NCBI GenBank assembly: GCA_938038205.1
Contig: CALHSA010000041.1
Location: 1 to 39,486 of the forward strand
From: an uncultured bacterium
GTDB taxonomy: Bacteria > Bdellovibrionota_C > UBA2361 > JANWWW01
Length of the DNA: 39,486 nucleotides
Direction: 5' to 3'
Every line of letters begins with the position of its first letter. The first letter of the stretch is position 1. Shown in pieces: positions 3,185-39,104 of the stretch. The notes below the pieces were generated by a model. It was not told the origin of the DNA and searched no databases. It saw only the letters and a list, made by a program, of their open reading frames with translations. Made by a program: the position numbers and the translations under genes.

Positions 3185-3205
3185 ATTAAGTATTTAATAC
3201 TTAAT
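3185..3205. repeat. 21-bp perfect palindrome upstream of rtcB
   Basis: ATTAAGTATT (3185-3194), one central base, then its exact inverted complement AATACTTAAT (3196-3205). It ends 3 bases before the rtcB start codon and covers the predicted -10 box (TAAATA at 3191-3196, minus strand). Position and symmetry suggest an operator for a dimeric repressor. AT-richness makes chance palindromes more likely, but 10-bp arms are long even so. A 5' RNA hairpin is less likely if transcription starts at or near the ATG. Confidence 0.5.
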
Positions 3206-3219
3206 TATTTATATTTCAA
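3191..3219 (-). promoter_or_regulatory. putative rtcB promoter
   Basis: On the minus strand TTGAAA (3214-3219) is followed after 17 nt by TAAATA (3191-3196), which ends 9 nt before the rtcB ATG. The expected transcription start is at or next to the start codon, so the mRNA would be leaderless. No Shine-Dalgarno sequence is visible at usable spacing. Confidence 0.45.
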
Positions 3220-3223
3220 AAAT

Positions 3224-4516
3224 TTAAAAAATCTTAATTTCATCCAGCGCCGTATCAATAAAATATATAGAACCACCTAAATTTCTAATTTTAATATCAA
3301 TAGAATCATACCCTCTTCTAAGGTGATATGAATCTAAAATCTCACTCTCACCTTTCGCAGTTAATCCAGCAAGAACAAGGGCTGCGCCTGTACGGATATC
3401 CAAAGCCCTAACCTGAGCAGGAATTAAAGTGGTGCTCCTAAGTATCATGCATCCGTTTTTTAAAAGCTTGTAATTAATACCAAATTTTTTTAATTCTTCA
3501 AGGTAAGCAAAACGTGTTGGAAAAACATTATCCTTTAACACTCCCCGAGATTCTACTTTTGAGCCTAGAACCGCCATCATCGGCTGTAAATCAGTTGGAA
3601 ATCCAGGATATGGTGAGGCTACTATCCGAAAATTGTTAAGTTTTCTCGTTTCTTTAATTTCGATGCTTTGATCATCAACACTTTTAATTTGTACTCCTAG
3701 TTTTTGAAGCTTTTTCAAAACGTTATTAACACGCCATCTTTGAACTCCTGAAACCGTTACCTTTCTGCCTATTAAAGCTCCTAGGAGCGTAAATGTTAAG
3801 AATTCAATGCGATCCCCTGGAAGGTCAAAAACATAATCATTTGCAAGTAATTCTTTACCTCTAATTTTGATAGTTCTGTTTAGAACTTCAATATCAGCTC
3901 CACAGCCTTTGAGAAAATGAATTAAATCGATGATTTCAGGCTCAACCGCGCAGTTTTCCAAATTAACCGTAATATTTGATGAAGATGAATAAATTATAGA
4001 TTGTTGAGTTGCTCCAACTGAGGGAAATGGAAATCTTAATCTCAGTTTTTTGGGTTCCGACTTAACCTTATGAACTTCAACATAACCCTCATGTATCTTG
4101 TACTCAAAGCCTAATTTTTTGAAAAAAGCTAAATGATAGTTAATAGGTCTCGGGCCAATCTTGTCTCCTCCAGGTAACATGATACTTGCAGAGCCAAATT
4201 TATTAAGAACTCCTGCCAAAAGAAGCACGCTTGATCTAACTTCATTCGCATAAGAGTATCTTATGTCATTACTTTTTAAACCGTTATTTCTCAAAAATAA
4301 CGTGTTGTTAGGCAGCCAAGATACCTCAATTCCTAGCTTCTCTAATAAAGAAATCATAAAGTACACGTCTGTAATATTAGGAACATTCCTCAAAAAAAAT
4401 CTTCCTTTAACTACCAAACTCGCAGCTAGGATTGGGAGAACAGAATTTTTTGATCCACTAACTAAAACTTCTCCCTCCAGCTTTTCACCTCCTCGAATTC
4501 TAAGAATTTCATTCAT
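3224..4516 (-). CDS. murA: UDP-N-acetylglucosamine 1-carboxyvinyltransferase, Asp-type active site
   Basis: MurA transfers enolpyruvate from PEP to UDP-GlcNAc, the first committed step of peptidoglycan synthesis in the cytoplasm. At 430 residues it has normal length. Family residues seen are GSKNSVLP (Lys23-Asn24), the NEVRSS segment (Arg94), PGFPTDLQPM with the general base Asp309, and LDIRTGAAL (Arg375). The catalytic loop reads LPGGDKIGPRPIN at about 114-126: Asp118 stands where E. coli has Cys115. Known MurA enzymes with Asp here (Mycobacterium, Chlamydia, Borrelia) are intrinsically insensitive to fosfomycin, so the same is inferred for this one. The start codon lies 6 bases after the prmC stop, so the two genes are probably cotranscribed. 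Confidence 0.95.
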   Translation of the reverse strand: MNEILRIRGGEKLEGEVLVSGSKNSVLPILAASLVVKGRFFLRNVPNITDVYFMISLLEKLGIEVSWLPNNTLFLRNNGLKSNDIRYSYANEVRSSVLLLAGVLNKFGSASIMLPGGDKIGPRPINYHLAFFKKLGFEYKIHEGYVEVHKVKSEPKKLRLRFPFPSVGATQQSIIYSSSSNITVNLENCAVEPEIIDLIHFLKGCGADIEVLNRTIKIRGKELLANDYVFDLPGDRIEFLTFTLLGALIGRKVTVSGVQRWRVNNVLKKLQKLGVQIKSVDDQSIEIKETRKLNNFRIVASPYPGFPTDLQPMMAVLGSKVESRGVLKDNVFPTRFAYLEELKKFGINYKLLKNGCMILRSTTLIPAQVRALDIRTGAALVLAGLTAKGESEILDSYHLRRGYDSIDIKIRNLGGSIYFIDTALDEIKIF

Positions 4517-4522
4517 TAAACT

Positions 4523-5299
4523 TTAAGCAGTTAATTTTAAAAAACAAACACCTAAGAGAGAATCAATTTGCTCAACGACTAGACCCACATCTTCACAAAG
4601 CTTTTTTATATTGGGTACCAAATGATTGGATGACTCCAGTAGTATAAATCCATTTTCTGAAATGAAGTTTCTAACTCTTATCAAAAATCTTCTGATAGTG
4701 TAGAATCCATTCTCTTTTGCTACAAGAGCCCTTATCGGCTCTTCGCGAATAGAACCCCTGAAATCTGTTTTTTTTAAATAGGGTGGATTACACAAAATTA
4801 TGTCAAAACTCTCGTTTAAATTTCTGGGAAACAAATCTGCTTTAAATACTCTACTATTCAAAATGTTATAGACTTGTAGATTTTTACAAATACACCTAAC
4901 TGCTCTAGTAGATTTATCAATTAAAGTCGTTTCAACAATAAAACCTTTTTTTTTCAACTCAAGTGTCAATGCAATAGCAAGAGCTCCAGTGCCAGCACAA
5001 ACATCTAAAATTTTAACTTGAGGCCAAAAATGAGAAGCCTCATTTAGTGCAAATTCGATTAATGTCTCGGTTTCTGGACGAGGAATAAATACTCCATTTG
5101 AAACAAAAAATTTATAGTTCATAAAAAAGCAGAAACCTCGAGAATACGCTAATGGATAATCAAGCCTCTTGAGCTTTTTCTGTATAGTGTTTCTAATTAG
5201 TTTTGGTAAACTACTTAGATTTAAAAGCTCTCCAATATTGACCCTGCACCTCTCAGCCAAGACTTTGATTTCAAAATTTTTCAAGCCACTTAACCTCAT
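4523..5299 (-). CDS. prmC: peptide chain release factor N5-glutamine methyltransferase
   Basis: PrmC (HemK) methylates the Gln of the GGQ motif in release factors, using S-adenosylmethionine, and so raises termination efficiency. The 258 residues show the family signature FIPRPETETL (71-80), the SAM-binding motif I region DVCAGTGALAIAL (99-111) and the catalytic NPPY (171-174). An N-terminal helical domain precedes the Rossmann fold. It is somewhat shorter than the usual 275-290 residues. The normal neighbour prfA is absent, but murA follows directly, an arrangement in which prmC and murA form a short operon. A -10-like AATACT lies 9 nt upstream of the ATG. Confidence 0.93.
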   Translation of the reverse strand: MRLSGLKNFEIKVLAERCRVNIGELLNLSSLPKLIRNTIQKKLKRLDYPLAYSRGFCFFMNYKFFVSNGVFIPRPETETLIEFALNEASHFWPQVKILDVCAGTGALAIALTLELKKKGFIVETTLIDKSTRAVRCICKNLQVYNILNSRVFKADLFPRNLNESFDIILCNPPYLKKTDFRGSIREEPIRALVAKENGFYTIRRFLIRVRNFISENGFILLESSNHLVPNIKKLCEDVGLVVEQIDSLLGVCFLKLTA

Positions 5300-5321
5300 T
5301 CGAAGCTCAGTATTTAGGAGA

Positions 5322-5350
5322 TGTAAAACCTCTCATCAGTATGTTATAAT
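5322..5350 (+). promoter_or_regulatory. putative promoter of the Fe-S carrier gene
   Basis: A perfect TATAAT (5345-5350) lies 8 nt before the ATG at 5359, with a weak -35 (TGTAAA, 5322-5327) at 17-nt spacing. The spacing predicts a transcript starting at the ATG. There is no Shine-Dalgarno sequence in between. Confidence 0.5.
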
Positions 5351-5358
5351 TAAAAATT

Positions 5359-5712
5359 ATGGAAAACCAACAAGCACCTAATGAATTTCCTATTTTACTA
5401 ACTGATGCTGCAAAAAATGCAATTTTAAAAGCCTTACAGGAAGAAGGTGATGGAGCAAAATGGGTTAGAATATCAGTAAGAGGCGGTGGATGCTCAGGCT
5501 ATCAGTACAATCTTGATTTTGAGGATGAGAAAAGGGATGATGATCATGAACTAGCTTTGAATGAATGTTTTGGTGTACTGCTTGACCCTATTTCGGCTCA
5601 GATGTTAAAAGGAACTTCAGTAGATTTTATCTCTGGGCTGAATGGAAGTGGTTTCAAGTTTAATAACCCAAACGCTAAAAGAACATGTGGTTGTGGACAC
5701 AGTTTTTCCTAG
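5359..5712 (+). CDS. A-type iron-sulfur cluster carrier (IscA/SufA/ErpA family)
   Basis: A-type carriers receive an Fe-S cluster from a scaffold and pass it to target apoproteins. The 117-residue protein has the three conserved Cys ligands: Cys45 in RGGGCSGYQY, and Cys110 and Cys112 in RTCGCGHSF. Their spacing (C-x64-C-x-C) is diagnostic. The C-terminal CGCGHSF is closest to the ErpA-like form, but I cannot separate ErpA from IscA or SufA by eye. The gene heads a plus-strand group with the YjbQ-family and B12-domain genes and is divergent from prmC. The Suf genes are about 29 kb away in this window, so this carrier is not in a suf operon. Confidence 0.93.
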   Translation: MENQQAPNEFPILLTDAAKNAILKALQEEGDGAKWVRISVRGGGCSGYQYNLDFEDEKRDDDHELALNECFGVLLDPISAQMLKGTSVDFISGLNGSGFKFNNPNAKRTCGCGHSFS

Positions 5713-5727
5713 TTCAAATTTAATATT

Positions 5728-6144
5728 TTGAAAAGCTTTAGAAAAATTATTGAGATAAACCATCCAAAGAAGTACGGGATTATTAGAATCACTGATGAAG
5801 TGGAGAAAGCAGTCAAAGAGAGTGGAATAAAAGAAGGTTTATGTTTGGTAAACTCGATGCATGTTACCTCGAGTGTTTTTATAAACGATAACGAGTTTGG
5901 GCTACATCAAGATTTACTTGATTGGTTAGAAAATTTAGCTCCCTATTCTCCATCAAAGTATAGACATAATAGAACTGGAGAAGATAATGCTGATGCTCAC
6001 CTTAAAAGAAGTATTCTAGGAAGGGAAGTAGTGATTGCAGTGACGAATGGAAAACTAGACTTTGGGCCTTGGGAGGAGATTTTTTATGGGGAATTTGATG
6101 GACAGCGAGTAAAAAGGGTTTTGATAAAATTGATCGGAGAGTGA
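5728..6144 (+). CDS. YjbQ-family protein (UPF0047)
   Basis: This 138-residue protein matches the YjbQ/UPF0047 family, small beta-rich trimers annotated as secondary thiamine-phosphate synthases because some members rescue thiE defects; the physiological role is unsettled. Seen motifs are [18 protein letters not shown] (about 43-59) with the conserved His45, and [14 protein letters not shown] (80-93) followed by [21 protein letters not shown]. The start is a TTG at 5728, chosen because the peptide from that codon ([10 protein letters not shown]) matches the family N-terminus. There is no good ribosome binding site. The stop overlaps the start of the next gene (TGATG), suggesting translational coupling. 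Confidence 0.88.
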
Positions 6145-6563
6145 TGAAACCTCTAAAAATATTATTGTCAAAGGTGGGGCTAGACGGACATGATAGGGGA
6201 GTGAAGATAATAGCTCGGGCTTTCATGGAAGCTGGTTTTGAGGTAGTTTATACTGGACTTCATAGATCTGCGGAGGATGTAGTTAAAGCTGCAATCGAGG
6301 AGGATGTAGATGCAATTGGAGTAAGTATTTTGTCGGGAGCTCATATGACTCATATTCCCAAAATACTAGATCTACTTCGCTCTGAAGGGGAAGATATTCC
6401 AGTTTTTGGAGGTGGAATTATACCTGAGGACGATATTGTTAAGTTAAAAGAACTAGGAGTAAAAGAAATATTTCCTCCGGGCTCATCTCTAACCGAAATA
6501 GTTGATTGGGTTAAGAAGAACATACCTAAACGGTCACAAGTGAGCCGTTCAGCAATATCTTAG
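6144..6563 (+). CDS. stand-alone cobalamin-binding domain, methylmalonyl-CoA mutase C-terminal type
   Basis: The 139-residue protein is a single B12-binding Rossmann domain. The DGHDRG motif (residues 14-19) supplies the His that ligates cobalt in base-off/His-on binding, and SILSGAHM and FGGGIIP are the conserved loops around the nucleotide tail. It is of the type that forms the small subunit of methylmalonyl-CoA mutase or isobutyryl-CoA mutase. No mutase large subunit, epimerase or MeaB is present in the window, so its partner must be elsewhere. The ATG at 6144 overlaps the upstream TGA; a GTG at 6141 is an alternative. The last residues (KRSQVSRSAIS) lie over a short inverted repeat (AACGG...CCGTT) that may belong to a terminator. 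Confidence 0.9.
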   Translation: MKPLKILLSKVGLDGHDRGVKIIARAFMEAGFEVVYTGLHRSAEDVVKAAIEEDVDAIGVSILSGAHMTHIPKILDLLRSEGEDIPVFGGGIIPEDDIVKLKELGVKEIFPPGSSLTEIVDWVKKNIPKRSQVSRSAIS

Positions 6564-6564
6564 G

Positions 6565-6747
6565 TTATCTTTTTGAATTAACTTCAAGGTAAAGGCCACT
6601 TGATTCCGAGTTTTTCCGTATGTACCTCTCTTTTATTGTTGAAAAACCCCGGAATATATCGCCTGGCCTAAGATCACTGAACACATAATTCTTCTTGTTC
6701 TTCATCGCCCCAAAAAGATCTTCCATAGTAATCCTTTTATTTTTCAT
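6565..6747 (-). CDS. small hypothetical protein, 60 aa
   Basis: An open frame of 60 codons (MKNKRITMEDLFGAMKNKK...) placed downstream of the LOG-family gene on the same strand and ending two bases past the convergent B12-domain gene. The peptide is basic and has a plausible folded segment (FSDLRPGDIFRGFSTIKERY). No family is recognised and no Shine-Dalgarno sequence is seen. An internal ATG at codon 8 is an alternative start. It fills a gap that would otherwise be empty, which is mild support for its being real. Confidence 0.45.
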   Translation of the reverse strand: MKNKRITMEDLFGAMKNKKNYVFSDLRPGDIFRGFSTIKERYIRKNSESSGLYLEVNSKR

Positions 6748-6799
6748 ATGTAATTGTTATGAGTTATATTTTTTAAACTGTTATTAGTGAAAGTATTAA

Positions 6800-7504
6800 T
6801 TACTGATTGGAATTCATGTGTAAAGAGCAACCTGACAACCACCTAGCATGATCTTGAAGTATAATACTCACAACCTCGTCAACAGAATCAGTAACGGTTA
6901 CAATATCAATATCTTTCGGTGATATTAGCCCTAGCTTCAGAGGATTCATTCTCATCCAATCCAACAAACCGGACCAAAATTCAGTTCCAACAAGTATCAT
7001 CGGCTGTTTTGCAGAGGAGAACTCCTGCAAAAGCTGCCAAGCGAAAAATAGCTCTAAAAGAGTACCAATACCTCCTGGCATAACCACAAAAACCATAGAC
7101 ATTCTAAAAAACTCATCCAACCTCGAGGTGAATTTTGGATGAAGTCTTTTAATGTCTAAATAAACGTTAGGATCCTCACCGATATCTAATTTAATGTTCA
7201 AGCCAACAGCTTTTGCTTTTGTCTTTGCCTCTTTCTGCCCTTCTTTAAGCCCCTTATTCGCTGCCTCCATTAAACCAGGTCCTCCTCCAGTAACCACATC
7301 TATTCCTTCCCAACCCATCCTACGAGCAATCTCAAAAGCCATTCTGCCATATTTAGAGTCAGGTGACATTCTCTTTGAACCCCAAATAGCGACTCTGTAA
7401 TATTTACACTTCTCTGCCTCTTTTAACTCGGTTTCAAGTTCAATTACCTTGTTGATGTAAAAGTCCAGCTCTTCTCTTAATTTTTTTCTTCGATTATCCT
7501 CCAT
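6800..7504 (-). CDS. LOG-family protein (nucleotide 5'-monophosphate phosphoribohydrolase type)
   Basis: The LOG/TIGR00730 family hydrolyses the N-glycosidic bond of nucleoside 5'-monophosphates; plant-type members activate cytokinins and bacterial paralogues probably act on AMP or purine nucleotides. The 234 residues carry both signatures: GGGPGLMEAANKG (73-85) and PGGIGTLLE (143-151), the latter holding the catalytic Glu. A charged helical N-terminal extension (about 1-35) precedes the Rossmann fold, so this is the longer class rather than the compact plant-like LOG. It lies 31 bases downstream of obg, but a TAGAAT box 9 nt before the ATG suggests its own promoter. Confidence 0.88.
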   Translation of the reverse strand: MEDNRRKKLREELDFYINKVIELETELKEAEKCKYYRVAIWGSKRMSPDSKYGRMAFEIARRMGWEGIDVVTGGGPGLMEAANKGLKEGQKEAKTKAKAVGLNIKLDIGEDPNVYLDIKRLHPKFTSRLDEFFRMSMVFVVMPGGIGTLLELFFAWQLLQEFSSAKQPMILVGTEFWSGLLDWMRMNPLKLGLISPKDIDIVTVTDSVDEVVSIILQDHARWLSGCSLHMNSNQ

Positions 7505-7535
7505 TATTCTTAGATTCTATACCATAAATAAGCTT

Positions 7536-8540
7536 TTAAGAATTAAGATTTAAGTGCTTGGTGATTTTACTTAGAAAGTCATCTACTCCAATTTTTGTTA
7601 TTGAAGATAAAAAGCAAACATCCAAATAACCCATCTTGCGGCCTTCAAGTTCAAGCTCCTGTTTTTTTGGTTCACAAAGATCAATCTTGGTAAAAACAAG
7701 AATTTTTGGTTTATTGAAAATATCCTTTGAAAACATACTTATTTCATCTTCAATTAACTTAATCGGAGAAAAATCTAACCCTGCTGGACTTTGAATTAAA
7801 GTTATATCAACTAAGTGGCATATTATTCTGACCCTAGATAAATGTTTCAGAAACTTAAAACCCAAACCTTTACCTGAGGATGCCCCTTGTATTAAACCGG
7901 GCAGATCAGCAACAACGAACGATATATCTTTGAATGTGACAATTCCCAACTCTGGGGCTAATGTCGTAAAGGGATACTCAGCAATTCTTGGTTTAGCTCG
8001 TGAAATAACTGATAAAAGTGAAGATTTACCAGCATTAGGTAAACCAACTAAACCTACATGAGCTATTACCTCTAAACTCAGCATTACCTTTTTTTCTTCA
8101 CCAGGTTTGCCTCTTGTAAACTTCAAAGGCATCCGATTCCGAGCCGATGCAAATCTAGAGTTACCTAAACCTCCTGCTCCACCCTTAGCTACCACATAAA
8201 AAGAACCATCTTCGACCAAGTCTGCTATAACCTCCTTAGTCTCAAGATCTATTATTTTTGTGCCTAGAGGAACATACAAATAAACGTTCTTTCCTTTTTT
8301 ACCAGTCTTATTGTTAGTTCCTCCTTTACCACCATTCTCAGCCACAAAATGCTTTTTATATTTAAAATCTAGCAGGGTTAATTTTCTTTTATCAGCCACT
8401 ACTACTACATCTCCTCCTTTTCCTCCATCACCACCATCCGGGCCTCCTTTAGGTTGATGTCGAGTTCTCGCAAAATGACACATGCCATCCCCGCCATTGC
8501 CACCCTTGGTATGAATCACTACTTCATCAACAAACTTCAC
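7536..8540 (-). CDS. obg: GTPase Obg (ObgE/CgtA)
   Basis: Obg is an essential large-ribosomal-subunit assembly GTPase that links growth to ppGpp levels. The glycine-rich Obg fold occupies residues 1-157 (KGGPDGGDGGKGGDVVV, then GGAGGLGNSRF). The G domain follows: G1 GLPNAGKSS (166-174), G2 region FTTLAPELG (191-199), G3 DLPGLI (212-217), G4 FTKIDL (283-288). It ends right after the G domain at 334 residues, so the C-terminal OCT domain found in Firmicutes is absent, as in many Gram-negative members. The usual neighbours rplU and rpmA are not adjacent. The start is GTG, fixed by the family N-terminus MKFVDEV. It is divergent from tilS across only 25 bases. Confidence 0.95.
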   Translation of the reverse strand: MKFVDEVVIHTKGGNGGDGMCHFARTRHQPKGGPDGGDGGKGGDVVVVADKRKLTLLDFKYKKHFVAENGGKGGTNNKTGKKGKNVYLYVPLGTKIIDLETKEVIADLVEDGSFYVVAKGGAGGLGNSRFASARNRMPLKFTRGKPGEEKKVMLSLEVIAHVGLVGLPNAGKSSLLSVISRAKPRIAEYPFTTLAPELGIVTFKDISFVVADLPGLIQGASSGKGLGFKFLKHLSRVRIICHLVDITLIQSPAGLDFSPIKLIEDEISMFSKDIFNKPKILVFTKIDLCEPKKQELELEGRKMGYLDVCFLSSITKIGVDDFLSKITKHLNLNS

Positions 8541-8548
8541 TTGAAATT

Positions 8549-8576
8549 AGTTTAGAATTTACGATATGAAAAACAA
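8549..8576 (-). promoter_or_regulatory. putative obg promoter, overlapping the tilS -10 box
   Basis: Minus strand TTGTTT (8571-8576), 16 nt, then TAAACT (8549-8554), ending 8 nt before the obg GTG. On the plus strand a TAGAAT (8553-8558) lies 7 nt before the tilS ATG. The two -10 boxes overlap by two bases, so the divergent genes would compete for polymerase. No clear -35 is seen for tilS. Confidence 0.4.
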
Positions 8577-9504
8577 AATTTTTAATTTAATCAAAGAGAC
8601 TCGTAGTGTTATAGCAGACAAATTTGTTATTGCAGCTGTTTCCGGAGGCAAAGATAGCGTATTCATGTTACATATTTTAGAGAAAGCCAAACCAAAAAAA
8701 TTAGTCGTTGCGCATTACAATCATAAATCTCGCCCAGAAAGTGATTCAGACGAGGAATTTGTTAAAAGTTTGGCAAAAATGAAAAATTTAGACTTTTTCT
8801 CAGAATCTCTAAATGAGCAACCAAAAAAAGGTGAGAGCCTTGAGGCGTTTTATCGAGAGAAGAGATATGAATTTTTAAATAAATTAAGACTTACTTTGGG
8901 TGCAGATTACATATGTGTTGCCCACTCAGCAAATGACATTATTGAAACTTTTTTGTTTAAGATGATAACGGGACGTTTTATATCAGTCCCTCAACGTCTC
9001 TCACAGGATTTAAATATTTTTAGACCATTATTCACCTGGAGAACAGATGAAATTCTAAAGGCAATCTCCTTTTTAAAACTTAAATTTGTTTCTGATCAAT
9101 CAAACTTTGATCAGAGATTTGACAGGAACTTTATCCGAGAAATAGTAAACATGATAACTGAAAGGTTTGGCCCAAAAACTATTAATAACCTTTTAGATAA
9201 AATCTTAGAAATTGAGGAAAGCCGTCTGGTCTCTAAAAACTTAGCTTATGCTTTGTTAAAAAGAATTGAACCATACAGATACGATGAGATTAAATCATGT
9301 TTAAGTGACTTAGAGCTTGATCAAGCAAAATATTATTTTTTAAATGAGTGGATGTTCCTGCTTAAAAAATTCTACTTGGGGACTACACATCTTAAACGTT
9401 TAAAAGTTTTTTTTGAAGAATCGAGGCACTCAATACAACTTCCGAGAAGAATAACCCTTAAAAAAATCGAGAAAAAATTACAATTCGAGGTTACTTGCTC
9501 ATAA
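8566..9504 (+). CDS. tilS: tRNA(Ile)-lysidine synthase
   Basis: TilS converts C34 of the CAU-anticodon tRNA-Ile to lysidine, so that it reads AUA and is charged with Ile. The PP-loop SGGKDS (26-31) binds ATP. Family landmarks follow: AHYNHKSR...SDSDEEFV (49-66), SLEAFYREKRYEF (91-103), the AHSANDIIETFL helix (119-130) and SDQSNFDQRFDRNFIR (176-191), which resembles the DxSN.d..y.RN.iR consensus. At 312 residues it has the catalytic domain and a shortened C-terminal part, compared with about 430 in E. coli. AUA codons are common in this AT-rich window, so the enzyme should be important. Confidence 0.92.
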   Translation: MKNKIFNLIKETRSVIADKFVIAAVSGGKDSVFMLHILEKAKPKKLVVAHYNHKSRPESDSDEEFVKSLAKMKNLDFFSESLNEQPKKGESLEAFYREKRYEFLNKLRLTLGADYICVAHSANDIIETFLFKMITGRFISVPQRLSQDLNIFRPLFTWRTDEILKAISFLKLKFVSDQSNFDQRFDRNFIREIVNMITERFGPKTINNLLDKILEIEESRLVSKNLAYALLKRIEPYRYDEIKSCLSDLELDQAKYYFLNEWMFLLKKFYLGTTHLKRLKVFFEESRHSIQLPRRITLKKIEKKLQFEVTCS

Positions 9505-9523
9505 ACCCTCCAGAATTTATCAT
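9495..9523 (+). promoter_or_regulatory. putative promoter of the secreted protease gene
   Basis: TTGCTC (9495-9500), 17-nt spacer, TATCAT (9518-9523), then 9 nt to the ATG at 9533. It lies over the 3' end of tilS. The geometry predicts a leaderless transcript. Confidence 0.5.
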
Positions 9524-9537
9524 TAGGGTTTAATGAG
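9498..9537. repeat. 12-bp inverted repeat enclosing the protease promoter and start codon
   Basis: CTCATAAACCCT (9498-9509) pairs with AGGGTTT-A-ATGAG (9525-9537) with a single bulged A. The 15-nt interior contains the -10 box and the right arm includes the start ATG. No T-run follows, so it is not a normal terminator for tilS. It may be an operator flanking the -10, or an RNA hairpin at the start codon if transcription begins upstream. Confidence 0.5.
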
Positions 9538-10348
9538 ACTACTATTTTACTTATTTTTATTTTTAGTAATTGGCTGTGGTGAGAACAACAATGATACCCA
9601 AGCAGCTCAGTTAAGCGGTGGATGTAAAATTACCACAATAGTAGGCGGCAAATCATGCGGCACTAGTAGGGGTCCAGTAGCTTTTTTAGTGATGTTTAAC
9701 AAACGGGGCGATGCTATTGGATTTTGCTCAGGTTCATTCATAACTAAAAACAGAATCATCACAGCAGCACACTGTGTAGATGGTTCTGCTAAAGTTAAAA
9801 TAATCTCGGGGGATTATATCTCCCACTCAGTTAGGATAATTAAGCACCCTAAGTACAAATCCAAATTTAAAAAATCTAATGAATTAGGTGTGGAGGCGCA
9901 TGATGTGGCTGTTATTTATGTTGCGAATCCCATAGACACGGAGCCATTTCCTATATTGGCATCCAGCTATGTTTCACCTAATCAGACAATAAGAGTCATG
10001 GGGTACGGGCTTTTTGATAACAAAAATTTTGATTTTTCTAGCCCTGAAAAAAATTTAAGGGGAGCAAAAATGAGAGTTTCATGGGTGGATAACTATTTCT
10101 TCTACTCCACTTATGAAGCTTCGAATGCAGCTGCTTGTATTGGTGATAGTGGTGGACCGGCAATTGGATACAATAATTTAAATATTCCTGGTATTGTAGG
10201 GATAACTCACGCTGTATACGCACCCGTTGACGAAAATGGAATCCCTATTTGTAGTGATGAAGACGTAATATCTATTTTTATTCCCTTGGCTTCACCGAAT
10301 ATTCTCAATTTTATCTTAAAACACGCTCCCGAGGCCAAGATTATTTAG
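9533..10348 (+). CDS. secreted trypsin-like (S1) serine protease, predicted lipoprotein
   Basis: The N-terminus MRLLFYLFLFLVIGC is a short lipoprotein signal with lipobox VIGC, so Cys15 should be lipidated and the enzyme anchored at a membrane facing the periplasm or surface. The chymotrypsin fold has the full catalytic triad: His80 in ITAAHC, Asp124 in EAHDVAVIYV, and Ser206 in ACIGDSGGPA. IVGGK (about 36-40) is reminiscent of the processed N-terminus IVGG of trypsins, so activation by cleavage after Thr35 is possible. Two extra Cys (31 and 42) may form a disulfide. The specificity residue cannot be assigned safely by eye. The 3' end overlaps the convergent FliI-like gene by 33 bases. Confidence 0.92.
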   Translation: MRLLFYLFLFLVIGCGENNNDTQAAQLSGGCKITTIVGGKSCGTSRGPVAFLVMFNKRGDAIGFCSGSFITKNRIITAAHCVDGSAKVKIISGDYISHSVRIIKHPKYKSKFKKSNELGVEAHDVAVIYVANPIDTEPFPILASSYVSPNQTIRVMGYGLFDNKNFDFSSPEKNLRGAKMRVSWVDNYFFYSTYEASNAAACIGDSGGPAIGYNNLNIPGIVGITHAVYAPVDENGIPICSDEDVISIFIPLASPNILNFILKHAPEAKII

Positions 10349-11599: not shown

Positions 11600-11601
11600 G
11601 T

Positions 11602-13040: not shown

Positions 13041-13113
13041 GCCCAGGTAGCTCAGTTGGTAGAGCAGTAGACTGAAAATCTACGTGTCGGCGGTTCGATT
13101 CCGTCCCTGGGCA
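13041..13113 (+). tRNA. tRNA-Phe (GAA)
   Basis: A complete 73-nt cloverleaf. The acceptor GCCCAGG pairs with CCTGGGC, with discriminator A at 13113. The D arm contains AGCTCAGTTGGTAGAGC. The anticodon stem GTAGA/TCTAC encloses loop CTGAAAA, giving anticodon GAA at 13074-13076. The T arm contains the TTCGATT loop. The 3' CCA is not encoded and must be added after transcription. Confidence 0.97.
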
Positions 13114-13125
13114 AAAGCTTTTTTG

Positions 13126-13154
13126 TTGATTAAAAGTTCTCCTCGATGTAATCT
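13126..13154 (+). promoter_or_regulatory. putative promoter of the glycine-zipper lipoprotein
   Basis: TTGATT (13126-13131), 17 nt, TAATCT (13149-13154), then 7 nt to the ATG at 13162. There is no Shine-Dalgarno sequence. Same leaderless geometry as other genes in the window. Confidence 0.5.
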
Positions 13155-13161: not shown

Positions 13162-14235
13162 ATGAAGAGGTTAATTTCGATTTTTACTGTTCTACTATTA
13201 GTTGGTTGTTCAACAATTCAGCAAGCTTACGAAAATTTTAATTCCCGATCTGATACAACTAAGGGTGCGATTATAGGCGGATCTGCTGGTGCGCTAGTAG
13301 GAGCAGCTTTAGGAAGCCAAACTGGCACGCCTGTAGAGGGGATGATAGTGGGTAGTGCAATAGGCGCAGGTATAGGGTCTACTATAGGCTACGCGCTTGA
13401 TACCAAAGCTCAGAAGGTAGAGCAAACAGAGTATCAGAAGCAGGTAAAGGAGTATGAGTTACTTAGAGAGCGAGAAATCTTAGAAGGATTAGAGCACTCT
13501 CCTCGTAGGGAGAGGGTGGCAGTAGGAGATCTGTACTTTTCAAAAATCAATAGGCAGAGCTACTTTACAGACTCTTATGCCTTACAGTCAGATAAAAGTA
13601 TGGCCTCAATTTCGAAGGTGAATGAAGTTAAACCAGTTTCAGCTGAAAAACCTGACTTAACACCACTTGAACCTAAGAGGGCAGAAATGGTGGAAAATAA
13701 CCAATCTATACTTTCAATTAACCCTTATAGCTCTGATCAAAAACCTGATCAAAGCCTAAACCTTTCCAAGACTGGCTTGAAGAATGAAGAGAGAACCTCA
13801 AAACAGAGTATCTCGCAACCTCATGAAAGGAGTATGGCTGATCAAAAATCAAACACGATTGAACAGAGATCCAAGGTTGAAAAATCAAATGAGGCTCGTA
13901 GAGTTGAAGAACCCAAGCCTGAAGTGAAGACTCAAAACTTTACTCAAGCTCCGGATATGGCCTCAATCCCCTCAAGTGCTCAGGAATTGTGTCCTGAAGG
14001 AATTGAAGAGCTAAAGAAGGCAAATGAGGCAACTGAGTTATCATCGAAGCTTTTCCATACACGAAGATCTATTAGATTGTGCAATAATTTCACGCCAGGA
14101 CGACTTGCCTTAGCTAAGCTTTATATAGAATTGAAGAGGTACGAGGATGCTAGTTTCGAATTAGAGAATATCCTTAAAACTGAGCCCAATAATAAGGAAG
14201 CAAAAGAACTCTTGAATTCTATCTCCTCGAGGTAA
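13162..14235 (+). CDS. lipoprotein with glycine-zipper and C-terminal TPR-like region
   Basis: The start is set at the ATG giving MKRLISIFTVLLLVGC; an upstream in-frame start would begin inside tRNA-Phe. The signal ends in lipobox LVGC, so Cys16 should be lipidated. Residues about 33-74 (GAIIGGSAGALVGAALG, then VGSAIGAGIGSTIGYALD) form a glycine zipper of the type seen in outer-membrane lipoproteins such as SlyB/YMGG proteins, able to insert in or pack against a membrane. A long charged, Ser/Lys/Glu-rich low-complexity linker follows (about 85-285). The last 70 residues (FTPGRLALAKLYIELKRYEDASFELENILKTEPNNKEAKELL) look like one to two TPR repeats. Function is unknown; an envelope scaffold is inferred. 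Its stop overlaps the next start (TAATG). Confidence 0.85.
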   Translation: MKRLISIFTVLLLVGCSTIQQAYENFNSRSDTTKGAIIGGSAGALVGAALGSQTGTPVEGMIVGSAIGAGIGSTIGYALDTKAQKVEQTEYQKQVKEYELLREREILEGLEHSPRRERVAVGDLYFSKINRQSYFTDSYALQSDKSMASISKVNEVKPVSAEKPDLTPLEPKRAEMVENNQSILSINPYSSDQKPDQSLNLSKTGLKNEERTSKQSISQPHERSMADQKSNTIEQRSKVEKSNEARRVEEPKPEVKTQNFTQAPDMASIPSSAQELCPEGIEELKKANEATELSSKLFHTRRSIRLCNNFTPGRLALAKLYIELKRYEDASFELENILKTEPNNKEAKELLNSISSR

Positions 14236-19682: not shown

Positions 19683-20399
19683 ATGATTCAAACTTTCAAA
19701 GCATTTATCATTGATCCTGACTCCGACGCTAGACTTCGTTTAAGGCAGAGTATGGCGTCAGTGCCTAATTTTAAAACGCTGGTACAGTTTAGCTCTCCCT
19801 CCGAGGCTCTAAATCAGTTAAACGTACTAGATCACATTGATGTTTTATTTATAGGAAATAGGTACGGAAAACAGATAGTAAGAAATTTTATTCAGCAAGG
19901 TAAACAGACAAAAGGGGGGCAGGATAGTGCCTATATTGTGGTACTCCCATCACTAACGGAGAGTAAATCGGTTATAGCTGAGGCCATGATGGATGGAGCT
20001 GATGGTATTTTATGTGAACCTTTTTCCGTTGAGCAATTAATAAACATAACCAAAATAGCAATTCGAGTAAAGAAAGAGAGAAGTGAGCAAAGACAAAGGG
20101 CAGCTATATCTCTCATGGTACCAGAGATAGCTAAACAAACGGATCTAGTAGCTTCAATTAAAGCTTCAGGAATGGAACCTGAGACATCCTTTAAAGTATT
20201 AAAGGAAAAAATGGAAAAAATTAGGTCAATGGATGAGTCGGGGATAAATATTTATTTAGAGCTAATGACTTCTCATATTGAAAATCTTCCTGCACCTATT
20301 CTTAATACAACTATTAAACCGTATACTGGAGTAAGTAGAAGACTAAGACAAAGAATTGAACAAAAGGTTGCTGAAAAAGTTAAAGGAGATCAGGTATGA
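19683..20399 (+). CDS. pseudo-receiver domain protein with C-terminal helical region
   Basis: Residues about 5-125 follow the CheY fold: FKAFIIDPDSDARLRLRQSM keeps the acidic pair at the end of strand 1, and AYIVVLPSLTESKSVIAEAMMDGADGILCEPFSVEQL resembles strands 4-5. The phosphoacceptor position is lost: the strand-3 segment DVLFIGNRYGKQI has Gly/Asn where Asp is required, and the conserved Lys of the KP motif is Glu (CEPF). It is therefore probably not phosphorylated and may act as a protein-binding module. The C-terminal 100 residues are helical and charged, with the basic end RRLRQRIEQKVAEKVKG. Its stop overlaps the start of the intact receiver gene (ATGATG), so the two are coupled and may interact. 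The output is unknown. Confidence 0.8.
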   Translation: MIQTFKAFIIDPDSDARLRLRQSMASVPNFKTLVQFSSPSEALNQLNVLDHIDVLFIGNRYGKQIVRNFIQQGKQTKGGQDSAYIVVLPSLTESKSVIAEAMMDGADGILCEPFSVEQLINITKIAIRVKKERSEQRQRAAISLMVPEIAKQTDLVASIKASGMEPETSFKVLKEKMEKIRSMDESGINIYLELMTSHIENLPAPILNTTIKPYTGVSRRLRQRIEQKVAEKVKGDQV

Positions 20400-22221: not shown

Positions 22222-22309
22222 TTACATACGTATGCAGTTTAAATTCAAATACAAGATTTACTCCTTACTTTATTGTTTTTGTGGTACGATAATATAAAGA
22301 GGTAAAGGT

Positions 22310-25940: not shown

Positions 25941-25960
25941 AACAACGTGAAAAAGTTGTT
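25941..25960. repeat. inverted repeat beside the efflux-pump promoter
   Basis: AACAAC (25941-25946) and GTTGTT (25955-25960) are exact inverted copies separated by 8 nt. The right arm overlaps the -35 element (25956-25961) of the adaptor gene. It lies in the 107-bp divergent region and could be an operator for a regulator of the pump. No regulator gene is adjacent. Confidence 0.4.
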
Positions 25961-25984
25961 ATAAGCTAGTGACCCAATTAAAAT
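25956..25984 (+). promoter_or_regulatory. putative promoter of the RND efflux pair
   Basis: TTGTTA (25956-25961), 17 nt, TAAAAT (25979-25984), then 7 nt to the ATG at 25992. A leaderless transcript is expected. The adaptor and pump genes would both be read from it. Confidence 0.5.
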
Positions 25985-31345: not shown

Positions 31346-31781
31346 AAACTTTATATTTCCTTAGAAGTTCTCTCTCTATATCTCTTCTTTTAATTTCCTC
31401 CTTTCTTTCGTATTTCTTTTTATGCTTCACAAGAGCAATTCTGACTTTAATTAAACCTCTACTATTTACATAAAGCTCATATGGTAAAACCGTTAAACCT
31501 TTCTCTCTCGACTTTGAGAATATTCTCACAATTTCATTTTTTTTTAATAAAAGTTTTATCGCCCGCTTGTTGGATTTTATCCAAGGTCCGGTAGCATTAA
31601 CTATAAAGTTCACTAACCATAATTCCCCTTTTAAATGGCGAACAAACGCTTTTGACATGTTAAATTTTTTTTCTTTTATTGCCTTCACCTCGTAACCCAA
31701 AAGCTGCAGCCCAGCTTCATAAGTCTCTAAAATATCAAACCTATGCTTTAAATCTCTATTTACTTCTAATACCCTATTCAC
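31344..31781 (-). CDS. smpB: SsrA-binding protein SmpB
   Basis: SmpB partners with tmRNA in trans-translation to free stalled ribosomes. The 145 residues show NRDLKHRFDILETYEAGLQLLGYEVKAIKEKKFNMSKAFV (OB-fold; family n+.a...y.i..t.eaGi.L.GtEVKs.r.g..nl.ds), GLTVLPYELYVNSRGLIKVRIALVKHKKKYERKEEIKRRDIERELLRK and the basic C-terminal tail that enters the mRNA channel. The start is a GTG at 31781. The divergent nagZ begins only 4 bases away, so each promoter must lie inside the neighbouring gene; a TATAAA/TAAAAT element is seen about 17-20 nt upstream within nagZ. The ssrA gene is not in the window. Confidence 0.94.
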   Translation of the reverse strand: MNRVLEVNRDLKHRFDILETYEAGLQLLGYEVKAIKEKKFNMSKAFVRHLKGELWLVNFIVNATGPWIKSNKRAIKLLLKKNEIVRIFSKSREKGLTVLPYELYVNSRGLIKVRIALVKHKKKYERKEEIKRRDIERELLRKYKV

Positions 31782-31785
31782 TGAA

Positions 31786-34856: not shown

Positions 34857-34887
34857 TCTTGAAAAATTTAGTCAAGATTGTTATCCT
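34855..34887 (+). promoter_or_regulatory. sufC promoter with overlapping inverted repeat
   Basis: TTGAAA (34859-34864), 17 nt, TATCCT (34882-34887), then 6 nt to the sufC ATG. An exact 8-bp inverted repeat, AATCTTGA (34855-34862) and TCAAGATT (34872-34879), covers the -35 box and spacer. It could be an operator for an Fe-S-responsive regulator, or the terminator of prfC, since a T-rich tract (CCTTTTTTC) follows a few bases later. Both readings are possible; the overlap with the -35 favours the first. Confidence 0.5.
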
Positions 34888-34893
34888 TTTTTC

Positions 34894-35634
34894 ATGACTC
34901 CCCTGTTGGAAATATCAAATTTAAGGATAAGTGTTAATGATAAGCCTATTCTGAACGGTATATCTTTAAACGTTCACCAAGGTCAAATTGTTGCGATTAT
35001 GGGTCCAAATGGTAGCGGAAAATCAACTTTAGCCAAAACAATCATGGGATCACCAGAGGTAAAAGTAGATCAGGGTACGATACTTTTTGAGGGAGAGAAT
35101 ATAACAGAACTTGATGTTACTGATAGAGCTAAGCTGGGTATTTTTTTAGCTTTTCAATACCCTCAAGAGATTCCCGGAGTTAATATGCGTTACTTCCTTA
35201 AATCAGCTTATGAAGCTAGATTTGGAAAAAAAATTGACCAACTAGAGTTTAAATCCCTACTCTCTGATGCATTAAAAAAATTAGATTTAGACAGCTCCTT
35301 TGTTCAGAGGAATTTGAATTATGGCTTTTCAGGCGGTGAGAAAAAGAAAAGTGAAATCCTACAGCTACTACTCTTAAAACCAAAATTGGCTATCTTAGAT
35401 GAAACTGACAGTGGTTTAGATATTGACTCACTAAAATCAGTTGCTCAATCAGTTACGCTTCTAAAGCAATCAAATCCTGAAATGGCTTGCTTAATCATAA
35501 CGCACTATGAGCGAATACTTGAATATTTGATTCCTGATAAAGTTTATATAATGAAAAACGGGTACATTTCTGCGGAGGGTGATATTAATTTGGTAAATCA
35601 GATCTTAGAGCATGGTTATGCGTGCTTTTCTTAA
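34894..35634 (+). CDS. sufC: Fe-S cluster assembly ATPase SufC
   Basis: SufC is the ABC-type ATPase of the SufBCD scaffold. The 246 residues include Walker A GPNGSGKST, FQYPQEIPGV in the Q loop (the Suf-specific AFQYPxEIPGV), the signature FSGGEKKKSEILQ and Walker B AILDETDSGLDID. The ExDSGLD form is typical of SufC. sufD follows after 6 bases. sufB, sufS and sufE are not adjacent, so the cluster is split. Confidence 0.95.
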   Translation: MTPLLEISNLRISVNDKPILNGISLNVHQGQIVAIMGPNGSGKSTLAKTIMGSPEVKVDQGTILFEGENITELDVTDRAKLGIFLAFQYPQEIPGVNMRYFLKSAYEARFGKKIDQLEFKSLLSDALKKLDLDSSFVQRNLNYGFSGGEKKKSEILQLLLLKPKLAILDETDSGLDIDSLKSVAQSVTLLKQSNPEMACLIITHYERILEYLIPDKVYIMKNGYISAEGDINLVNQILEHGYACFS

Positions 35635-35640
35635 AAGGAC

Positions 35641-36579
35641 ATGAGCTTGATTGAAGAGATATCTCAAGAACTATACACTGATGAATCGTGGGTTGGGGTA
35701 AGCTCAAAGAGTTTTATTCAAACAGTTACGAGTAATATTGGTGAATATGTTATCGATTCAAACATCAAGTCAAGATTAAATACTTATGATAGTATTGAGA
35801 GGTACCTTGCTAGCAACTTACAGATTAACGGCGCAATAAAGGAAGTTAATTTTTCTCCTCGAAATTCGTATTATAACCTAAAATCTTTTGAGATTAATAA
35901 ATTAGAAACAACCACTTTCTTTTGTAAAGAACCTTCATCATTTTGGATTGATTTAGATATAGATCAAGATACAGAGTTTTTACTTAATGTCGAAAATGAT
36001 TCGGTTTTATTTTTAAAAATAAATATCGAGATATTTGATAAAGCCAGAGTAAATTTTGGAATATTAATAAACAATAACTCTGGAGAATGTAGGGTAAACT
36101 TATGCACTAATTTTAGGCAACCTAAGAGTGAGGTTTTTGTAACAATACTCTCTAAAAACTCAGGAAAACTATCAATTTGTAACAGGCAATTACATCCATT
36201 TGAGGGATGTAAATCGGACTCTCTTTTTAAGTTTTTGGGCTTGGAATCTAGCTATACTCATTTTTGGGGTTTGATTGAGATAATGAGTGAGGCTCAGAAC
36301 TCTGATGCCTATCAACTAGCTAGGGCTATGTTGATAGGGCAGGAGGCCTCCGGAAATCTTATTCCAAACTTAAAGATAGGTGCTAATCAGGTTCGTTGCA
36401 CTCATGGGGCATCCTTCTCTACCATCAACCCGAATGACATTTTTTATTTAAGATCTAGAGGTTTCAGTCTTTCTGAGAGTGTTAAATTTTTAACTGACGG
36501 TTTTCTTTTGGAAGGAGTCAGTAGATTACCTGAAAAATTTCACAACCCTGTTGAAAATTTTGTATTATCCTTGAAATGA
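35641..36579 (+). CDS. sufD: SufD-like Fe-S scaffold component (SufB/SufD family)
   Basis: The 312 residues are a short SufB/SufD-family protein. The C-terminal core motif is clear: LIPNLKIGANQVRCTHGASFSTINPNDIFYLRSRGFSLSESVKFL, with His255 in the CTHGAS motif corresponding to the cluster-site His of SufD (family HGAt.g.ld...lFYl.sRGl...eA...l). The beta-helix region before it is divergent, and the N-terminal domain is shortened compared with E. coli SufD (423). It follows sufC by 6 bases and overlaps the Rieske gene by 4. I call it SufD rather than SufB because the protein is short and a second member of the family is not adjacent, so the SufB assignment remains open. Confidence 0.82.
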   Translation: MSLIEEISQELYTDESWVGVSSKSFIQTVTSNIGEYVIDSNIKSRLNTYDSIERYLASNLQINGAIKEVNFSPRNSYYNLKSFEINKLETTTFFCKEPSSFWIDLDIDQDTEFLLNVENDSVLFLKINIEIFDKARVNFGILINNNSGECRVNLCTNFRQPKSEVFVTILSKNSGKLSICNRQLHPFEGCKSDSLFKFLGLESSYTHFWGLIEIMSEAQNSDAYQLARAMLIGQEASGNLIPNLKIGANQVRCTHGASFSTINPNDIFYLRSRGFSLSESVKFLTDGFLLEGVSRLPEKFHNPVENFVLSLK

Positions 36580-36893
36580 GAATTAGTTTGGGTAAGCTTG
36601 AAAATTTTCAACGAGAAGGAATTCATAGAGTTTTTGTAAATGGACTTGATTTGATATTAATAAAAAAAAATGGAGAATTTTTTTGTTTAGAGAATAGATG
36701 CTCTCATGAAGACTTCCCTTTGGAGGATGGGGATCTTGATGAACACAATGGAGTAAGCTGCGTTGTATGTCCTGCTCATGGAGCAAAGTTTAGCTTTTCT
36801 GGACAAGCACTCACACTGCCTGCGGTTGAGAACATCAAATCATACAAGATTGAAATAGCTGAAGGAGAGGTTTTTGCAACACTTAATGAGTAA
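36576..36893 (+). CDS. Rieske 2Fe-2S ferredoxin
   Basis: The 105-residue protein is a free Rieske domain: ENRCSHEDFPLEDG (Cys42, His44) and VVCPAHGAKFSFSG (Cys65, His68) ligate the 2Fe-2S cluster. It resembles the small ferredoxins annotated as non-haem iron oxygenase components, but a gene of this type is often found at the end of suf operons. The start overlaps the sufD stop by 4 bases (ATGA), indicating coupling, so a role in electron supply for Fe-S assembly is inferred. Confidence 0.9.
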   Translation: MRISLGKLENFQREGIHRVFVNGLDLILIKKNGEFFCLENRCSHEDFPLEDGDLDEHNGVSCVVCPAHGAKFSFSGQALTLPAVENIKSYKIEIAEGEVFATLNE

Positions 36894-36899
36894 TTTAGT

Positions 36900-36929
36900 T
36901 TGAATATTTTTTTTTAAATTTAGTACACT
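36900..36929 (+). promoter_or_regulatory. putative trigger factor promoter
   Basis: TTGAAT (36900-36905), 18 nt, TACACT (36924-36929), then 7 nt to the GTG start at 36937. An in-frame stop (TAA, 36931-36933) just before the GTG excludes an earlier start. The arrangement predicts a leaderless mRNA starting on GTG. Confidence 0.5.
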
Positions 36930-36936
36930 TTAATCA

Positions 36937-38154
36937 GTGAGTGAAGAAAAAAAGCTTCAATTTAGGCTTCCTAAAGAAGAGATTGAACAGCTTGTTGAAG
37001 AGCAACTTAGAGAAAAAGCCAGGACATCAAATATTAGAGGCTTCAGGCCAGGTAAAGCACCCTTGGAATTTATACGAAAGAAATACTATGCATCAACATT
37101 TGATTCAGTAACGCGGGATAAATTAATTGACCTCGTTGATTCTTATAGAAAAAACGAGAAGCTGGCAGGTGTTGTTCCGACAGATGTTGTTTACCAAGTG
37201 GTTGAAAATGATGTTATCTGTGATGTTACAGTGATTCCTTTAGTTGGTATTGATATTCAAAAATTTGAGACTAAACTTCTGGAAGAGGAGTTAGAGCTAT
37301 CTCAATGGAGTGCCCTAGATGACGAGAAAATAAACGATGTTTTGCAAGCCGTTCAAGAAGCTTTCTCATATCACTCCTTGAATAAAATTAAAGACAAAGT
37401 AGATTCAGAGTGTGATTTGCTTATGGCTATTAAGAAGCCCATTGAAATTAATTTGCTTGTAAGAAACTTATCTTTTGATCAGTATGCTAATAAAATTTTC
37501 AGTGAGCTTAATGGGAAAGCAGTGGGAGATAAAATATCATTAACTCATACTTATGCAGATAGAGAGTTTGAATTTGAGTTAGAAATAACTCAGATTAGAG
37601 ATGTAATGAAAGGAGATCCTCAACAAAATCTTGACTCTCAGAAAATCAAGGAAACGCTAAACAAATATATAGAGGATTTAAATGCATCAGTAAAATTTGA
37701 GACCATCAAATCAAAAATAATGCTAATAGCTTTATCAGATGAGGATTTTAAAAACTCATTCAAAGAGATTAACAAGCATTTACAAATAACTGACCCTGGC
37801 GCTATTGAAAAAATAATTTTCTCTTATATTTTTGAAGCGCAGAATCTTACCTTTACGGATGAAGAGTTTAAACAAGAGCTGGTTCAATTTTTTATCCGAT
37901 CAGGCGTTAATCCGTCTTCTATTCCTCCATCTGAGTTTAATTTAATCCGAGAGAATATTTTAGCTTCACTTAAAACTTCCAAAGTTATAGATCATTATTC
38001 AGGAAAAATCAGATTTAAAATAATTCCAGAGAGTGCATCGATAGATCTTTACTTATCTTTACTTAAAATCCATACTCTGAAAATGATTTTTGACCGAATC
38101 TGTTCGCAAATAATAAATCTAGAGTTGACCTCGAGTAATCAAAAATCTGACTAG
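36937..38154 (+). CDS. tig: trigger factor, degenerate form
   Basis: Trigger factor is the ribosome-bound chaperone at the peptide exit. The 405 residues contain the ribosome-docking signature GFRPGKAP (35-42), preceded by KEEIEQLVEEQLREKARTSNIR. The N-terminus is short: the protein starts about ten residues later than usual. The middle FKBP-type domain (about 140-225) is much degraded, and I see none of the usual F..G...PGF motif. The long helical C-terminal domain that forms the chaperone arms is present. It was probably retained for holding nascent chains without prolyl isomerase activity. The 3' end overlaps tsf by 4 bases. clpP and clpX, its frequent neighbours, are absent. Confidence 0.85.
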   Translation: MSEEKKLQFRLPKEEIEQLVEEQLREKARTSNIRGFRPGKAPLEFIRKKYYASTFDSVTRDKLIDLVDSYRKNEKLAGVVPTDVVYQVVENDVICDVTVIPLVGIDIQKFETKLLEEELELSQWSALDDEKINDVLQAVQEAFSYHSLNKIKDKVDSECDLLMAIKKPIEINLLVRNLSFDQYANKIFSELNGKAVGDKISLTHTYADREFEFELEITQIRDVMKGDPQQNLDSQKIKETLNKYIEDLNASVKFETIKSKIMLIALSDEDFKNSFKEINKHLQITDPGAIEKIIFSYIFEAQNLTFTDEEFKQELVQFFIRSGVNPSSIPPSEFNLIRENILASLKTSKVIDHYSGKIRFKIIPESASIDLYLSLLKIHTLKMIFDRICSQIINLELTSSNQKSD

Positions 38155-38744
38155 ATTTTTACTTCACCTACCTCAAACCGCATAAAACGAGAGATTTTAA
38201 TGTTTTCTCCAAATTTTGCACTCGAATTAGCTAAAAACTCTCGAACTTTAATAGACGTATCTTTGATATAAACTTGTTCAAGTAAGCAAACATCGGCAAA
38301 AAAAGAGTTAAGTTTGCCTTCCGCAATTTTTTCAAACTTGTCTTCAGGTACATCTGAGTATTGAGCTTTAATTATCTCAATCTCTTTATCAATAACTTCT
38401 GTTGGAACATCTTCTCTGGTTATGTACCTTGGCCTCATTGCTGCAACTTGCATAGCCAGCTCTCTAGCTAAGTTTTTAAACTCTTCGTTTTTAGCAACAA
38501 AATCTGTTTCACAGTTCAATTCAACTACAGCACAAATTTTATCACCTGGATGAACATAAACTCCTAAAGTCCCCTCTGATGCAGACCTTACTGATCTCTT
38601 TTCAAGATCTTTCAAACCTTTTTTTCTCAGAATTTCAATTGCCTTTTTTATATCTCCACCACTTTCCTCTAATGCGTTTTTACAATCAGTAATTCCTGCT
38701 CCAGTAATCTCCCGTAACTGCTTAATTAACGAAACATCAACCAT
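38151..38744 (-). CDS. tsf: elongation factor Ts
   Basis: EF-Ts recycles EF-Tu by nucleotide exchange. The protein is the short 197-residue type. It has the N-terminal UBA-like domain (LIKQLREITGAGITDCKNALEESGGDIKKAIEILRKKG) and the TDFVA core ELNCETDFVAKNEEF (about 74-88), with the C-terminal core reduced as in Thermus-like EF-Ts. The usual upstream rpsB and downstream pyrH/frr are missing; a small lipoprotein gene lies upstream instead. The promoter is minus-strand TAAAAT (38751-38756), 6 nt before the ATG. Confidence 0.95.
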   Translation of the reverse strand: MVDVSLIKQLREITGAGITDCKNALEESGGDIKKAIEILRKKGLKDLEKRSVRSASEGTLGVYVHPGDKICAVVELNCETDFVAKNEEFKNLARELAMQVAAMRPRYITREDVPTEVIDKEIEIIKAQYSDVPEDKFEKIAEGKLNSFFADVCLLEQVYIKDTSIKVREFLANSSAKFGENIKISRFMRFEVGEVKI

Positions 38745-38750
38745 GCGGGT

Positions 38751-38756
38751 ATTTTA
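38751..38756 (-). promoter_or_regulatory. putative -10 element of tsf
   Basis: TAAAAT on the minus strand, 6 nt upstream of the tsf ATG, with TTTAAA at 17-nt spacing as a weak -35. There is no Shine-Dalgarno sequence, so the gene fits the leaderless pattern. Confidence 0.4.
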
Positions 38757-38783
38757 ACAGACTGAAGGATGAATTTAAATTAC

Positions 38784-38984
38784 TTACTCCATTTCTGTAA
38801 GGGTTTCTTCCGGAGTTACTGTTGGAGTTTTTGGTCGAGTTTTTGTTGGAGTAACTACAGTAACTGTGGAGGTTTTAGTTGGTGTTTCATCTACTCTACA
38901 GTTGGGGCAAAATTCATAATCCTCAGAGCAGGAATCAAGTCCAAGCAAAAATAGAACCATCAAAGCTAGCAAAAATTCTCTCAT
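38784..38984 (-). CDS. small Thr/Pro-rich predicted lipoprotein, 66 aa
   Basis: MREFLLALMVLFLLGLDSC is a plausible export signal ending in a Cys with Ser at -1 and Leu at -3; Asp at -2 is unusual for a lipobox. After a short acidic stretch (SEDYEFCPNC, two further Cys) the rest is Thr/Pro/Val-rich with loosely repeated TPTKT/TPTVTP units. Such tails are often extended wall- or membrane-linked stalks. TAAAAT lies 7 nt upstream of the ATG (38992-38997), supporting a real gene. No family is recognised. Confidence 0.6.
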   Translation of the reverse strand: MREFLLALMVLFLLGLDSCSEDYEFCPNCRVDETPTKTSTVTVVTPTKTRPKTPTVTPEETLTEME

Positions 38985-39104
38985 GCTTGCTATTTTATGA
39001 AGGATGAAGTTATATTGCTACTAAAAGACAACAAGCTTTTTTATTCTTGAGAATATTTATAACATCTATTCGATAGTATATATTTTAATTAATAAGCCAA
39101 ACTT

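Follow-up and report, generated by a model that had tools for sequence, protein, structure and literature searches.

Predicted leaderless promoters and symmetric -10 boxes between divergent genes in a diderm bacterium of the Bdellovibrionota_C lineage

Introduction

The promoter-like -10 boxes considered here lie a few nucleotides ahead of start codons in a 39,486-nt stretch of DNA, hereafter the window (contig CALHSA010000041.1 of GenBank assembly GCA_938038205.1), and in the rest of the genome of the same uncultured bacterium (Bdellovibrionota_C; UBA2361; JANWWW01). Their closest described counterparts are the TA-led genes of Zheng et al. 2011 (PMC3160421). In the genomes where leaderless genes were detected, they account for a mean of 15.8% (up to 20.6%) of genes in delta-Proteobacteria, 13.3% in Acidobacteria and 26.5% in Aquificae. 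The studied genome resembles these in the TANNNT motif, whose first T lies about 10–12 bp ahead of the start, in the dinucleotide-shuffle control by which the motif is judged, and in the presence of Shine-Dalgarno (SD)-led genes alongside. It differs in being an uncultured diderm lineage, in the predicted share of such genes, which at about a fifth is near the top of the proteobacterial values, and in its fuller motif, TA[AT]AAT with TTG at -35.

In Deinococcus-Thermus, a -10 motif is adjacent to about one third of open reading frames (ORFs), and experiments in Deinococcus identify it as a promoter -10 element and not a ribosome site (PMC12340547). The box stands directly ahead of the start codon in both cases, but the studied genome has many -35 elements at 17 nt and encodes LpxC, unlike Deinococcus-Thermus. 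The introduction of the StartLink paper (PMC9581028) cites 21.6% of bacterial species as leaderless users predicted by GeneMarkS-2; like the genomes so described there, the studied genome mixes leaderless and SD modes, although it was judged by motif statistics and not by GeneMarkS-2.

An earlier sequence-only reading of the window remarked that extensive leaderless initiation is not standard for Gram-negative diderms. The diderm character holds, with matches to LpxC (E 3e-58) and Omp85/BamA (E 1e-46) that do not fit an actinobacterial or Deinococcus lineage, which would lack lipopolysaccharide synthesis. The novelty does not, as leaderless genes are on record in Gram-negatives (PMC3160421, PMC9581028). 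The leaderless trait alone is already known; the apparently new part is the proposed sharing of one symmetric box by pairs of predicted leaderless genes. Warman et al. 2021 reportedly described bidirectional promoters with symmetric -10 elements. A 2026 paper gives preferred start-site separations for bidirectional promoters, 18 bp being the commonest and 10 and 23 bp also common (PMC12825309). Opposite-strand -10 boxes in the studied genome overlap at 18 and 23 bp, two of these three separations; unlike those promoters, in an account that does not use the word leaderless, the start codons here lie at or near the start sites, with one element for two predicted leaderless genes. In restriction-modification systems, individual cases are known of regulated divergent promoters whose polymerase sites overlap, and likewise of leaderless genes (PMC5333194). 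Searches of an open-access library returned no description of a symmetric -10 box that systematically serves a pair of leaderless genes.

Results and Discussion

Genome and gene set

The metagenome-assembled genome to which the window belongs, as contig 41 of 46, spans 1.22 Mb, is 81% complete and has 35% GC. Genome-wide counts cover 1.15 Mb, with contig C1 (64,711 bases, all N) left out. Gene starts were called with our own phase-specific coding model, which is blind to the sequence upstream of the start. The upstream region was usable for 1,008 of the 1,019 called genes. Of these, 594 can start a transcript ("first" genes), being either divergent from their neighbour or separated by 15 nt or more from a co-directional one; 380 are "tight" operon genes (gap below 15 nt), and the other 34 lie at contig ends. 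The distance d is the number of nucleotides between the -10 box and the start codon, and background values come from dinucleotide shuffles of the upstream sequence. Relatives (G001, G003, G004 and G009) and controls (Escherichia coli, Deinococcus deserti and Thermus thermophilus) were put through the same pipeline. The Obg tree places the studied genome in a class apart from the sampled named phyla. S1, RpoD and additional sigma factors are encoded.

A -10 box next to the start codon of first genes

Several lines of evidence support promoter boxes directly ahead of start codons. First, 39.7% of first genes carry TANNNT at 6–9 nt from the start, versus 16.5% +/- 1.6% in shuffles (z 14.7), compared with 12.9% of tight genes versus 12.1% shuffled. 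The rate is 39% in divergent genes, 36% in co-directional genes with gaps of at least 40 nt, and 51% at gaps of 15–39 nt, and the positional profile has its maximum at d=6–9. Second, a de novo motif search (W=8) returns [GT]TTA[AT]AAT in first genes, most sites lying at d=6–11, with no counterpart in tight genes. A search with W=6 converged on AAATTT, whose position preference was not useful, and was dropped in favour of W=8. Third, TTG is found at a spacer of 16–18 nt upstream of the box in 56/236 genes (24%), versus 4–11% (about 7%) in other windows (p 6e-16). Fourth, SD sequences in first genes are at background (5.7% versus 4.6% shuffled), and SD 4-mers are almost lacking (0–3%) among the first genes that carry a box. 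Because of the TTG upstream and the background level of SD sequences, the box is best read as a sigma70 -10 element and not a ribosome site. The start-site signature (-1 pyrimidine, +1 purine) is suggestive only: at d=6, a pyrimidine precedes the start in 60% of genes versus 41% of tight genes. Start-codon choice shows no clear difference with the box, except that few TTG starts have boxes at 6–7 nt.

A large share of unit-first genes thus very probably carry sigma70-type promoters with the box 6–11 nt before the start, which would give leaderless or near-leaderless mRNAs. By a shuffle-corrected position-weight score at moderate thresholds, about 29–36% of first genes, and about a fifth of all genes (17–21%), are predicted to be leaderless, with a leader of 0–5 nt. 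The leaderless-promoter interpretation offered by the sequence-only reading gains support from the restriction of the box to first genes, its coupling to a -35 at 17 (+/-1) nt, the replacement of SD sites, and conservation in a related genus, and the genome-wide TANNNT count it proposed has come out strongly positive. The promoter nature and the geometry of the boxes are supported by sequence statistics, from which we infer the transcript 5' ends, leaderless translation and two-way firing of common boxes.

In the proposed mechanism, sigma70 polymerase would bind the -10 box, in many cases together with a weak -35, and would start at the start codon or no more than about 5 nt before it. The resulting mRNA would be too short at its 5' end for SD pairing, and its translation would follow the leaderless mode. 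Downstream operon genes may rely on a weak SD signal (17.1% of tight genes versus 10.2% shuffled) or on coupling, the latter because the median tandem gap is 3 nt. Standard gene callers, built around SD leaders, can misplace starts in such genomes.

As a separate observation, SD sites are scarce even ahead of operon-internal genes, at 17% versus 10% shuffled, whereas the E. coli value is 77%. Another mode, for example termination-reinitiation, may therefore dominate there.

Related genomes

The signal recurs in G001, a genome of the same family but another genus, which is SD-poor and has TANNNT in 27.6% of first genes versus 12.7% shuffled (z 6.1). Among members of the same class, G003 has a weaker excess (z 3.3) with SD sites present, while G004 and G009 show no enrichment among 62–65 first genes each. 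Thus, the trait appears to mark the family and not the whole class. The 16S tail in three other class members is an ordinary anti-SD sequence, GGATCACCTCCTT. In E. coli, TANNNT is depleted (2.6% versus 7.1% shuffled) and SD is strong; known leaderless users are positive, with z 6.3 for a D. deserti plasmid and z 5.2 for a T. thermophilus plasmid with only 23 first genes. Box presence is also conserved between the studied genome and G001: among 39 orthologues with verified starts, 15 have the box in both, 15 in neither, seven in the studied genome only and two in G001 only (Fisher p 5e-4). A family predicted to be rich in leaderless genes, beside class members apparently without the trait, offers a natural comparison for the gain or loss of leaderless initiation.

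Divergent genes and symmetric -10 boxes

The median start-to-start distance of divergent genes is 63 nt in the studied genome and 75 nt in G001, versus 238 nt in E. coli and 197 and 274 nt in the two negative relatives; on D. deserti plasmid 1, divergent gaps are long as well (median 406 nt), unlike in the studied genome. In 17/22 of the pairs spaced by 15–34 nt, each gene is preceded by a -10 box at 5–12 nt, versus 5.1 in shuffles of the intergenic sequence (maximum 11 in 300 shuffles), and the two boxes mostly overlap. The self-complementary TANNNTA is present in 18/22 of these pairs versus 9.2 expected, a count reached in 0/1000 shuffles. In a set of 42 pairs (12–40 nt) pooled from the studied genome and G001, mostly from one of them, the offsets of opposing boxes peak at -7 (11 versus 2.5 expected) and -2 (9 versus 2.7), and 0/500 shuffles are as high. 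With these two offsets, transcription would start at points separated by 18 and 23 bp.

The window contains a conserved example. Between the divergent genes obg and tilS lie only 25 nt (8541–8565), ttgaaatt-AGTTTA-gaatttacgat, in which the obg box TAAACT (8549–8554, minus strand, 8 nt to GTG) overlaps by 2 bp the tilS box TAGAAT (8553–8558, plus strand, 7 nt to the ATG at 8566), the two forming one symmetric element. The tilS box, in the promoter region common with obg, had been missed by the sequence-only reading. The pair recurs in G001 at a spacing of 26 nt, with the core TAGTTTA[AG]AAT and the obg box preserved between flanks that differ; a second divergent pair, C19:29515/29544, likewise has its core kept in G001. 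Upstream of obg in other class members, the box is present in none of the plus-orientation loci, the only ones that could be judged.

Closely divergent pairs such as obg/tilS could thus use one symmetric bidirectional -10 element, back to back, and the genes could sit 20–30 bp apart because no leader would lie between promoter and gene. It is plausible, with the balance about even, that the family has made leaderless initiation a genome layout, in which many divergent neighbours would be arranged around a single symmetric -10 box (about 7–10 bp), with both start codons at polymerase start points and the promoter and both 5' boundaries in one. Such pairs provide a test case for bidirectional promoters as a gene-organising principle versus noise.

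A second cluster of divergent gaps is found at 45–60 nt (for example, window 5299/5359), where usually only one gene has a box at leaderless distance. Interleaved promoters were tested for at these gaps, and boxes on both sides are at chance (4 versus 4.0).

Alternative explanations

The short divergent spacing could instead reflect plain streamlining, the overlapping -10 boxes being a by-product with one direction active. The studied genome is compact in every orientation (tandem and convergent gap medians of 2–3 nt), so its short divergent gaps do partly reflect streamlining, and any TANNNTA automatically reads as a box on both strands. However, G001 combines short divergent gaps with tandem and convergent gaps that are not compact, boxes at leaderless distance in both genes of a pair are far above shuffles, and the obg/tilS box is kept in G001 while its flanks diverge. 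Streamlining as the full account is possible, if rather doubtful.

A further alternative is that the AT-rich box is a non-SD ribosome-binding or accessibility signal of the Bacteroidetes type and not a promoter. This would suit the AT-rich upstream regions and the general lack of SD sites, but operon-internal genes, which likewise need ribosome binding, are not preceded by the box, unlike what such a signal would require. The box is moreover coupled to TTG at 16–18 nt and agrees with -10 positions T1, A2 and T6, which makes this explanation very unlikely.

Starts could also have been called too far upstream, with true starts downstream and the boxes serving ordinary leadered mRNAs. Calling starts from coding potential lacks precision, and alternative starts exist for several genes. 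Yet the box rate rises to 49% versus 16% shuffled when only orthologues with N-termini aligned close to residue 1 are counted, and boxes directly precede proteins with well-conserved N-termini, such as Obg and EF-Ts; misplaced starts are thus a highly improbable general explanation. Chance in an AT-rich genome, where TANNNT falls at about 4% of upstream positions anyway, is refuted genome-wide by the excess over dinucleotide shuffles and has a negligible probability, the AT-rich relative G009 (34% GC, 62 genes only) showing no signal, though single boxes may be chance.

Several points besides compactness weigh against leaderless promoters and shared boxes as the explanation. The start codons come from our own caller and some are wrong, with homology-verified starts for only 39 first genes. 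The genome is metagenome-assembled and 81% complete, and a search of this assembly found no 16S rRNA gene. A recognisable -35 is present in only a quarter of boxed genes, and boxes at d=10–12 would imply leaders of 4–6 nt. In G001, tight genes also show a moderate TANNNT excess (17.6% versus 8.3%, n=85). Few pairs make up the bidirectional set, and those of G001 taken by themselves do not reach significance (TANNNTA in 3/6 pairs).

Boxes in the window

The sequence-only reading had listed six -35/-10 pairs and six further -10 boxes in the window, and all are present with the spacings it gave. On the plus strand, the pairs precede a protease gene (TTGCTC-17-TATCAT, 9495–9523, 9 nt to ATG), a glycine-zipper lipoprotein gene (TTGATT-17-TAATCT, 13126–13154, 7 nt to the ATG at 13162), an efflux adaptor gene (TTGTTA-17-TAAAAT, 25956–25984, 7 nt to ATG), sufC (TTGAAA-17-TATCCT, 34859–34887, 6 nt to ATG) and tig (TTGAAT-18-TACACT, 36900–36929, 7 nt to GTG). 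An alternative opening of the lipoprotein ORF at 13084 would overlap a tRNA gene, and 13162 is taken as the start. The sixth pair, upstream of rtcB on the minus strand (3191–3219), combines TTGAAA (3214–3219), a 17-nt spacer and the -10-like TAAATA (3191–3196), 9 nt from ATG. It is doubtful, because TAAATA does not fit TANNNT and the box is missing in the orthologue from G001.

Besides the obg box, -10 boxes precede the Fe-S carrier gene on the plus strand (TATAAT, 5345–5350, 8 nt to ATG) and, on the minus strand, a LOG-family gene (TAGAAT, 7514–7519, 9 nt), tsf (TAAAAT, 38751–38756, 6 nt), a 66-aa lipoprotein ORF (TAAAAT, 38992–38997, 7 nt) and a 431-aa gene (TATATT, 1412–1417, 7 nt), each counted to ATG. 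By chance, about 16% of first genes would show TANNNT at this position, so perhaps one or two boxes in this list are fortuitous. The SD sites that the same reading assigned to clpA and the second receiver gene are also borne out, with SD-like GAGG (22299–22302) as a leadered contrast and GGAG (20385–20388) as an operon-internal one, both on the plus strand and each 7 nt before ATG.

The product of the protease gene (9533–10348) is a trypsin-like serine protease (Pfam Trypsin, E 1e-19) and carries a lipoprotein-like signal. Elsewhere in the window, smpB (GTG at 31781, minus strand) and a glycoside-hydrolase-like gene (31786, plus strand) have starts only 4 nt apart (31782–31785), so each promoter must sit largely within the opposite gene.

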